In this document: positions 19,888 to 28,236 of the stretch, in pieces
Layout: each line of letters begins with the position of its first letter
Position numbering within the stretch: the first letter of the stretch is position 1
Source: Chloroflexota bacterium
Lineage (GTDB): Bacteria; Chloroflexota; UBA6077; FW602-bin22; JAMCYS01
DNA: 32,338 nt
Direction: 5' to 3'
Assembly (NCBI GenBank): GCA_023473795.1
Contig: JAMCYS010000019.1
Location: forward strand, 1-32,338
Notes under the pieces: generated by a model
What the model was told of the DNA's origin: nothing
The model's input: only the letters and a program-made list of their open reading frames with translations
Database searches by the model: none
Made by a program: the position numbers and the translations under genes

Positions 19888-21732
19888 TTGGCTTTGGCGC
19901 CAGCGCGCCCCCAGGGGCGCCGGATTCCGCTGCCCTCACCCGGCGTACTGGCCGTTGGCGTCTGCCTGCTGGCTCTGCTAGCCGCCGCCTGGGTGGCGAC
20001 CGCCATTTTCGACCGCTTGCCCCACGTCGAGGATGACGTAGCCTTCCTGTTCCAGGCGCGCACCCTAGCGTCGGGCAGGCTGCTGGCCCCGGCGCCCGCC
20101 TTGCCGCAGTTCTTCGAGATCCCCTTTACGGTCCAGCGCGACGGCTTCTGGTACGGCAAGTACCCGCCCGGCTACCCGGCCGTGCTCGCTCTGGGGGTGC
20201 TGGCCGGTCAGCCCTGGCTGGTGGAGCCCATCTGCGGGGCCATAGCTGTTGGTCTGGTTTACTTGCTGGGACGGCATCTCTATGGCCCCTGGGTGGGGCT
20301 GCTGGGTGCCGGGTTGACCGCCGCCTCGCCCTTTTTCCTCCTGCAGGCGGGCTCGTTCATGTCGCACGCCGCCTGCCTGGCCTGGGCGACGCTCTTTCTC
20401 TGGCTCTTCCTGCGGGCGCGGCAGCGGCTCTCGCTCTGGCAGGGCCTAGCGGCGGGGGCGGCGCTGGGCATGCTCTTCCTCTCGCGGCAGCTCACGGCCG
20501 TCGGGGTGGCCCTGCCGGTGGCGCTGTGGTGCCTGGCCGACCTGGTTGGGCAGCGGCGCCGGTTGGGGCTCTACCTGGCGACGGCGGCGGGCTTCCTGCC
20601 GTTTCTGGCGATCCTACTGGCCTACAACCAGCTGACGACGGGCAATCCCCTGCGCAGCGCCTACGAGCTCTACTGGGCCTACGACAAGATCGGCTTCGGC
20701 CCGGATGTGGGCGTGCGCGGTCATTATCTGGCCGACGGCCTGCTCAACACGAGGATTAATTTCGACGCTTTCGCCACTTTCCTCTTCGGCTGGCCGGGCC
20801 AGTTGAGCCTGGCGCCGGCCGCATTGGCGGTGCTGCTGGCCGGGGCCGCGCTGGCGGCGCGGCTAGGCGGCGGCGTCCTTGACGCAGCGCGGGGGATTGT
20901 CCTTCGCGGTCCAAGCGGGAGTCGTCGGCGGGAACCGGAAAGGGCTGAAGCCCTCACTACAAACACGGAACCGGAAAGGGCTGAAGCCCTCACTACAAAC
21001 ACGGGTTCTTCGTCGTTCGTAGTGCGGACTCAACTGCCCCCGGCTAGGGGGTCAGTCCGCTTCTCGTTCCTGCGACGTCGCTCCTCAGACGGCGGGGGAC
21101 AAGCCCCCGCGCCGGGGGACACGGCCCCCGCGCCACACCAGGAGCAGCCACTCGGGCGCTCTGACCTCCCTCGCGACTGGGCCGGCTACGACCTGTTGTT
21201 GGCCGCGGTATTCGCCAGCCTGGTGCTGGTGCACGTGGCCTACTGGGCGTTCGGGCAGATGTACGGACCGCGCTACTACTTCGAAGCCCTGGGCGCGGTG
21301 GCGCTGCTCAGCGCCCGCGGCCTGGTGCGGGCCGGGCAGGCCCTCGCCAATGTGCTGGCGCGTCTGGTCTCGGCCGGGCGGGCCCGCTCGCTGGCGCTGG
21401 CCGCGGTCGGCTGCCTGGTCGTCGGCCTGTTCGCCTGGAGCTACACCCAGTTCGCGCCGGGGGAGTTCGGCAAGACGGTGCGCTGGTACGACATCGACGG
21501 CTCGGGGCCGCGAGCGGTGCGGGCGGCGGGCGTGCACAACGCCGTGGTCTTTGTCAAGCACAGCTACTGGACCGACTACGCCCCGTTCTTCAGTAACGAC
21601 GATCCGCTGCTCCAGGGCGACGTGGTCTACGCCATCGACCTGGGGCCGTCGCGCGACCGCGACCTGCTGGCGCTCTACCCGGGCCGCGCCGCCTATACCT
21701 ACGCCGACGGGCAAGTGACGCCGCTGCCGTGA
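19888..21732 (+). CDS. GT39-like (ArnT/PMT) membrane glycosyltransferase
   Basis: This 614-aa polytopic protein probably uses a lipid-phosphate sugar donor outside the membrane. After TM1 it has HVEDDVAFLFQAR with the acidic pair Asp49-Asp50, then KYPPGYPAVLALGV, and about ten membrane helices. A typical later motif is FGQMYGPRYYFE. The TTG start is supported by aggagg at 19875-19880, 7 nt upstream. Residues about 349-425 differ from the rest: a polar stretch (EPERAEALTTNT twice, then APAPGDTAPAPH) encoded by repeats of intergenic type, lying between two helices. The frame stays open, so the protein is probably made with an extended loop. Its gene lies next to the secreted glycosidase. Target and sugar are unknown. 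Confidence 0.8.
   Translation: MALAPARPQGRRIPLPSPGVLAVGVCLLALLAAAWVATAIFDRLPHVEDDVAFLFQARTLASGRLLAPAPALPQFFEIPFTVQRDGFWYGKYPPGYPAVLALGVLAGQPWLVEPICGAIAVGLVYLLGRHLYGPWVGLLGAGLTAASPFFLLQAGSFMSHAACLAWATLFLWLFLRARQRLSLWQGLAAGAALGMLFLSRQLTAVGVALPVALWCLADLVGQRRRLGLYLATAAGFLPFLAILLAYNQLTTGNPLRSAYELYWAYDKIGFGPDVGVRGHYLADGLLNTRINFDAFATFLFGWPGQLSLAPAALAVLLAGAALAARLGGGVLDAARGIVLRGPSGSRRREPERAEALTTNTEPERAEALTTNTGSSSFVVRTQLPPARGSVRFSFLRRRSSDGGGQAPAPGDTAPAPHQEQPLGRSDLPRDWAGYDLLLAAVFASLVLVHVAYWAFGQMYGPRYYFEALGAVALLSARGLVRAGQALANVLARLVSAGRARSLALAAVGCLVVGLFAWSYTQFAPGEFGKTVRWYDIDGSGPRAVRAAGVHNAVVFVKHSYWTDYAPFFSNDDPLLQGDVVYAIDLGPSRDRDLLALYPGRAAYTYADGQVTPLP
20931..21002 (+). repeat. 36-bp tandem repeat inside the glycosyltransferase gene
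   Basis: Two perfect 36-bp copies (20931-20966 and 20967-21002), each with the dyad agggctgaagccct and ending in cactacaaacac. Each copy encodes EPERAEALTTNT, so the reading frame is kept. Confidence 0.95.
21013..21134 (+). repeat. cluster of palindromic repeats inside the glycosyltransferase gene
   Basis: tcgttcgtagtg (21013-21024) is shared with the intergenic site at 28049. gcggact/agtccgc arms enclose ccccc/ggggg, giving a hairpin at about 21024-21061. Two G5/C5 palindromes follow, around gggggacaagccccc and gggggacacggccccc (21091-21134). Confidence 0.75.
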
Positions 21733-21807: not shown

Positions 21808-21858
21808 AGCCCCCTTCGAGGGGGCTTTGTACCTTCAGCCCGGGGCTTGAGCCCCGGG
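21808..21858. terminator. two hairpins between convergent genes
   Basis: agccccct/aggggggct-type arms (21808-21815 and 21819-21826, 8 bp) are followed by TTTG; a second dyad, cccggggct and agccccggg, lies at 21839-21858. They sit between the glycosyltransferase and response regulator stops and probably serve both strands. Confidence 0.55.
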
Positions 21859-27800: not shown

Positions 27801-28236
27801 AAACGCGGAACCTCTCTTCGACCTGGTAATTCTGGAAATAGTAATCCGTTGCGAACTGCCAATCCTGTGCGGTCCCAAGTATAGCGCAAGCGGACTGTGC
27901 AGGGGAATTGAGGAGACGGGCAGCCCCGTCGCTGGGGTGGGCAGGCCGTTTGTGGTGAGCGCTGCTGGGGCTCAAGTAATTGGCTTGGTCCGACCGCTAG
28001 GTGGCATACTGGGCAAACCGACGGTGGCACAGCCAATCCGCCGGGCTGTCGTTCGTAGTGAGCGCTTCAGCGCTTCGTTAAGTGTTTTGCGGCCAGTACG
28101 ATACAGGAGGCTGGCCTGGCCCGGCCACTTTGCGCTAGACTTGAAGAGAAGGCGCTGGCTGATCAACTCCGCCTGGCTGGTGCTGGGCGGGGCCCTGGTG
28201 GGTCTGGCGGCGCGGGCCATCGCCGGCTAGAACAGC
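27801..28236. other. intergenic stretch, no confident gene
   Basis: It contains the upstream region of the NYN gene (a TATACT on the minus strand near 27880 is the only promoter-like word), a dispersed repeat at 28049-28078, and a frame ending at 28230 whose last 29 codons (from TTG 28141) would encode a basic start plus one hydrophobic helix (WLVLGGALVGLAARAIAG). That frame has no ribosome site and may be chance or a gene fragment. Confidence 0.3.
28049..28078 (+). repeat. dispersed repeat with gcgcttcagcgc dyad
   Basis: It starts with tcgttcgtagtg, identical over 12 nt to 21013-21024 inside the glycosyltransferase gene, and continues into agcgcttcagcgctt, analogous to the agggctgaagccct dyad of the 36-bp tandem repeat. 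Confidence 0.6.

Follow-up and report, generated by a model that had tools for sequence, protein, structure and literature searches.

A composite cluster of GTAG REPs in frame within a membrane glycosyltransferase gene of a Chloroflexota bacterium

GTAG REPs, as described by Di Nocera et al. 2013 (PMC3733652), lie mainly in intergenic regions, and some occur in frame within genes, where they encode up to 43-82 amino acids. Intragenic clusters reach 82 codons in that account and are argued to survive in flexible loops, and one Chloroflexota GTAG REP is on record there, GTAG-23 of Thermomicrobium roseum. In REPINs and BIMEs, REPs are arranged as inverted doublets whose spacer has a conserved length; each doublet is believed to travel as one element through the action of a RAYT, and alternating clusters also occur (PMC3116915, PMC2817692). 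HuH single-strand transposases of the RAYT type recognise GTAG hairpins (PMC8266576, PMC6006769), and in-frame REPs inside tnpA-REP genes of subclass 2.4 have already been described (PMC6006769, section 13). The Rickettsia RPEs, in the summary given in PMC3733652, are palindromic repeats that lie in frame in genes whose proteins are presumed to be functional. In-frame REPs in genes are therefore already known, and the glycosyltransferase gene reported here is a clear new example that does not open a new class.

The window studied here is the whole stretch of DNA that was analysed, 32,338 nucleotides long. It carries a gene whose frame is open throughout, as the earlier note had stated, and specifies 614 amino acids (Table 1); the TTG start at 19888 is a mechanical choice. 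The protein matches Pfam PF13231 at 38.3 bits against a cut-off of 26.1, and Foldseek gave ArnT (5f15) as the best structural match and OST/PglB (STT3) as the next. The AlphaFold model has a mean pLDDT of 86.7, with 463 of the 614 residues at 90 or above. Values below 50 are found only at residues 1-3 and 352-427, and the latter stretch, which is predicted to be disordered, falls between helices 309-339 and 431-451. The model places the insert in the loop joining two membrane helices, where it should leave the fold undisturbed, and we infer that the glycosyltransferase carrying it still works. An imperfect 27-bp G+C-rich tandem repeat (20809-20874) is present in the membrane helix directly upstream of the insert, and it probably results from alanine/leucine codon bias.

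Table 1. Coordinates of the host gene, the parts of the insert and an intergenic R1 arm of the window
Feature	Position	Strand	Basis or remark
Host gene, GT-C-fold membrane glycosyltransferase (PMT_2 / ArnT-STT3-like)	19888..21732	+	Pfam, Foldseek, 21 aligned homologues
Whole in-frame insert, composite REP cluster	20883..21134	.	252 bp = 84 codons, approximately residues 333-416
Left outer R2 REP, CGCAGCGCGGGGGATTGTCCTTCGCGGTC	20883..20911	+	Score 42 against a 99% genomic null of 28
36-bp unit copy 1, contains R1 REP arm (hairpin AGGGCTGAAGCCCT then CACTACAAAC)	20931..20966	-	
36-bp unit copy 2, R1 REP arm	20967..21002	-	Identical to copy 1
14-bp spacer of the inverted R1 pair, ACGGGTTCTTCGTC	21001..21014	.	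Commonest spacer length
Right R1 REP arm, long-hairpin variant GTTCGTAGTG-CGGACTCAACTGCCCCCGGCTAGGGGGTCAGTCCG-C	21015..21060	+	
Right outer R2 REP, hairpin GCGGGGGACAAGCCCCCGC (at 21092)	21088..21112	-	
Degenerate second R2-like copy, CCGGGGGACACGGCCCCCGCGCC	21110..21134	-	
Intergenic R1 arm, AGCGCT type, TCGTTCGTAGTGAGCGCTTCAGCGCTT	28049..28075	+	Within the window

The limits of the insert were set from the outermost R2 match on the left to the end of the second R2-like copy on the right. The repeat-bearing segment had previously been delimited as 20931-21134; the repeats in it are real, but its left edge was about 48 bp short of the true start, where there is an extra REP. The two 36-bp tandem copies are perfect, as had been observed, and the palindromes described at 21013-21134 are present. 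As single-stranded DNA, this 204-bp segment folds far better than shuffled sequences do (-50.3 against -38.4 kcal/mol, z = -3.5). The layout of the insert is an outer R2, two inward-facing R1 elements, one arm of which is tandemly duplicated, and inverted R2 copies. Three of its arms hold exact 16-base R1 words. The R1 tags are intact and the R2 tags are mutated (GCAG in one case, lost in the other), and the left R2 is identical to the R2 consensus CGTAGCGCGGGGGCTTGTCCCCCGCGGTC at 25 of 29 bases. The right R1 arm has an additional dyad, CTGCCCCCGGCTAGGGGG, in its loop, and the long-hairpin form is common to eight R1 arms in the set. Only one of the six frames across the insert is free of stops, and it is the one used by the host gene.

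R1 consists of a GTTYGTAGTG tag followed by a short hairpin, which in the matches from the bacterium's own genome is usually CGGACTTCAGTCCG, AGCGCTTYAGCGCT or AGGGCTTYAGCCCT. The R1 pattern found 148 arms genome-wide, against 13 for a reversed control pattern. The hairpin has a 7-bp stem and a 2-nt loop, and among 54 distinct arms the stem changes on both sides at three pairs (A-T/C-G, G-C/C-G and A-T/G-C). Most arms form inverted pairs with the tags face to face and the arm positions approximately 30 bp apart, and the spacer most often measures 14 bp (13 of 27 dimers). R1 belongs to the GTAG REP superfamily, as judged by its tag, stem compensation, copy number and inverted dimers. The assignment follows from the GTAG at the foot of the hairpin, the dimers and the mainly intergenic sites, which are the marks given in PMC3733652. 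The 'TT' inverted dimers, with GTAG inside, and the clusters are likewise as in the superfamily, whereas neither the stem and loop sequence of R1 nor the R2-R1-R1-R2 composite corresponds to a family in the text descriptions of that source considered here. The doublet arrangement and the fixed-length spacer also resemble those of REPINs and BIMEs (Bertels and Rainey 2011; Nunvar et al. 2010). Unlike in REPINs, no RAYT bracketed by R1 was found among the five RAYT-like genes of the genome. No R1 hairpin was found in viral contigs, and the insert region was not found in plasmids. At another intergenic locus of the genome (L113:1980-2150, contig C154 of G000), six R1 arms are arranged in tandem in one orientation with a period of 31 bp.

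Read on the other strand, the hairpin of the right outer R2 corresponds to GTAGC-GCGGGGGCTTGTCCCCCGC in intact copies, and this defines R2; both the GTAGC tag and GCGGGGGCTTGTCCCCCGC are present in most R2 copies. R2 copies that reached the 99th percentile of genomic windows flank 6 of the 27 R1 dimers on each side with the expected orientation; wrongly oriented copies number 1 and 0 on the two sides. Because R2 is present at 20883 and flanks R1 dimers elsewhere in matching orientations, the composite spans the whole of 20883-21134. R2 is word for word alike in many Chloroflexota genomes from several families and classes (L062-L070, with own-genome copies at L127-L143). REPs are usually fast-changing, and the sameness of R2 in these genomes might be due to horizontal transfer or to conservation of its RAYT.

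The earlier note proposed a dispersed palindromic element that tolerates coding sequence and grows protein loops. Dispersal between genes is borne out at genome scale: dozens of copies between genes match the insert DNA at 82-93% identity, with E values as low as 1e-26, and the repeat is not confined to the glycosyltransferase gene. The element is of a recognisable kind, however, namely a GTAG REP cluster, and intragenic REPs had been described before (PMC3733652, PMC6006769). The repeat words had also been said to recur between genes of the window. TCGTTCGTAGTG does so exactly at 28049-28060, but GGGCTGAAGCCC occurs only in the glycosyltransferase gene, its nearest intergenic dyad in the window being GGGCTCAAGCCC at 21843-21854, with one mismatch. 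The genome is a 4.44 Mb draft in 170 contigs with 4.8% contamination, and the census of R1 and R2 covers the stretches around matches, exclusive of contig ends and of unlisted two-mismatch arms. Coding at these places was checked with a codon-usage model trained on the same genome. Of the 68 distinct places examined, the one in the glycosyltransferase gene is the only one within coding sequence. At two places, this gene and L010, the frame was open and coding-like to the left and to the right, and L010 was rejected as a second coding insertion since two real genes lie on the strand opposite its open frame. In the GTAGGGGCG census, L203 was flagged and was rejected because it has no hairpin. 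Two RAYT genes of the genome contain in-frame REPs of another family. Tolerance of coding sequence is thus seen in the glycosyltransferase gene and, for that other family, in the RAYT genes, but at a single R1/R2 place. Likewise, the growth of a protein loop by REPs holds for the glycosyltransferase gene, yet such growth is uncommon and probably neutral.

A homologue search with an alignment as query gave 51 loci, and a single-protein query of contigs gave none. The segment is absent from 21 of the 21 homologues in the final alignment and is not conserved in distant ones, which is the outcome that the earlier note had named in favour of insertion. The six closest homologues (L151-L156; Thermomicrobia) come from Thermomicrobiaceae, Thermalbibacter and Sphaerobacter (L151-L153, L155, L156) and from Chloroflexi CFX8 (L154), and they are 48-58% identical to the host protein. 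Between a conserved W-P (302-303) and D435, the linker of the host protein is 131 residues long, against 34-47 in these six and 20 in most of the others. Without the 252 bp, the host linker would have 47 residues, which is inside the range of the closest homologues, and the C-terminal half of the protein is colinear with the family. Insertion of the REP cluster in the glycosyltransferase gene is therefore supported and well bounded, its bounds being set by protein homologues at 48-58% identity, with 13 genomes in the order.

As for the Rickettsia RPEs, the insert is palindromic, in frame and missing from homologues, the fold is predicted to remain intact and the function of the protein is presumed to be retained. 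RPE-4 and RPE-6 are CGTC-tagged in the summary of PMC3733652, whereas the tag found here is GTAG, and the present elements belong to another phylum and are rarely intragenic. Compared with the intragenic cases in PMC3733652, the host is a membrane glycosyltransferase, and 84 codons stands at the top of the reported range. The host gene is also unrelated to the tnpA-REP genes of subclass 2.4.

The reading that we favour, with a probability of about 0.92, is that a REP composite entered the glycosyltransferase loop in frame and that one arm was then duplicated by whole codons. The composite, with inverted R2 copies outside and an inverted R1 pair inside, would have entered the GT-C inter-helix loop by the REP route, through either a RAYT acting in trans or recombination with another copy. 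With its length of 252 bp and its chance placement in the one stop-free frame of six, the insert would have left the frame open, and the loop would have accommodated it since the native linker varies and lies outside the fold. The second 36-bp copy is probably a later tandem duplication, retained because 36 is a multiple of three.

A recently hit pseudogene, with the REP cluster in frame by chance and the enzyme dead or dying, is an unlikely reading. The 36-bp copies are still identical, which makes at least the duplication recent, but coding statistics are strong on either side of the insert (+25.5 on the left and +35.7 on the right over 100 codons) and the invariant residues of the family are kept in the downstream half. 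Moreover, the left R2 copy has already diverged at 4 of 29 bases, and AlphaFold is confident on both flanks of the insert. It is also conceivable, with very low probability, that the loop is adaptive, either because the proline-/arginine-rich segment plays some part in the protein or because hairpins in the RNA control how the downstream half is translated. The strong predicted single-strand structure and the in-frame REP segments kept by the two RAYT genes would fit such a role; however, the segment is predicted to be disordered and occurs in no other family member. We regard an assembly artefact, in which the gene was wrongly fused with a REP cluster from between genes or the assembler doubled the 36-bp unit, as still more improbable. 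Repeats are classic points of misassembly in a draft genome of 170 contigs, but frame and coding signal run on to the native stop, the C-terminal half is colinear with homologues, and a chance join would have to preserve both the frame and the partner. Finally, an ordinary lineage-specific low-complexity linker, resembling REPs by chance or through G+C bias, is refuted by the genome copies at 82-93% identity, the R1 census and the linker-length result: the homologue linker varies naturally (20-47 aa) and the genome is G+C-rich, but exact R1 words stand inverted around a spacer of standard length and removal of exactly the REP cluster restores a linker within the family range.

This locus is a clearly delimited instance of a selfish-type DNA repeat turned protein, in which insert length, homologue linker length and predicted disorder closely agree. 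It adds an uncultured lineage of Chloroflexota to the range of intragenic GTAG REPs and presents REPs as nested, inverted composites. Gene finders and protein families will encounter such segments, and their recognition guards against over-interpretation.

A single-strand transposase of the RAYT (TnpA-REP) type, acting in trans, probably moves the REPs of this lineage. The RAYT genes L073 and L148 of the genome are bracketed by inverted GTAG REPs of the sister GTAGGGGCG type. In the relative G040 (contig C46, L236:1383 and 1945), a RAYT gene lies between inverted R2-type REPs, GTAGCGCGGGGCCTTGCGCCCCGC, and is a candidate for the autonomous partner of R2. It is a doubtful proposition that the REPs of the lineage are a recurring source of in-frame loops which later expand by codon-multiple tandem duplication. 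If true, REPs would offer a functioning way for non-repair proteins, and for the transposases of the REPs themselves, to gain new linker sequence. The periods of the two intragenic arrays, 36 and 42 bp, are multiples of three, against 31 bp for the intergenic array at L113; the arrays are few, and the difference is no more than suggestive.

Two RAYT genes show internal repeats. At L148:1042-1704, where the gene lies between inverted GTAGGGGCGAGGCTTGCCTCGCCC REPs, a further copy is in frame near 1385-1408. Another RAYT gene (L147:1130-1381, contig C40 of G000) has an in-frame array of approximately six 42-bp units, sited between the HuH motif and the region of the catalytic tyrosine. This array ends in a perfect palindrome, GTAGGGGCGACCGGCCGGTCGCCCCTAC, which is also found at L210, L218 and L222 in the genome.
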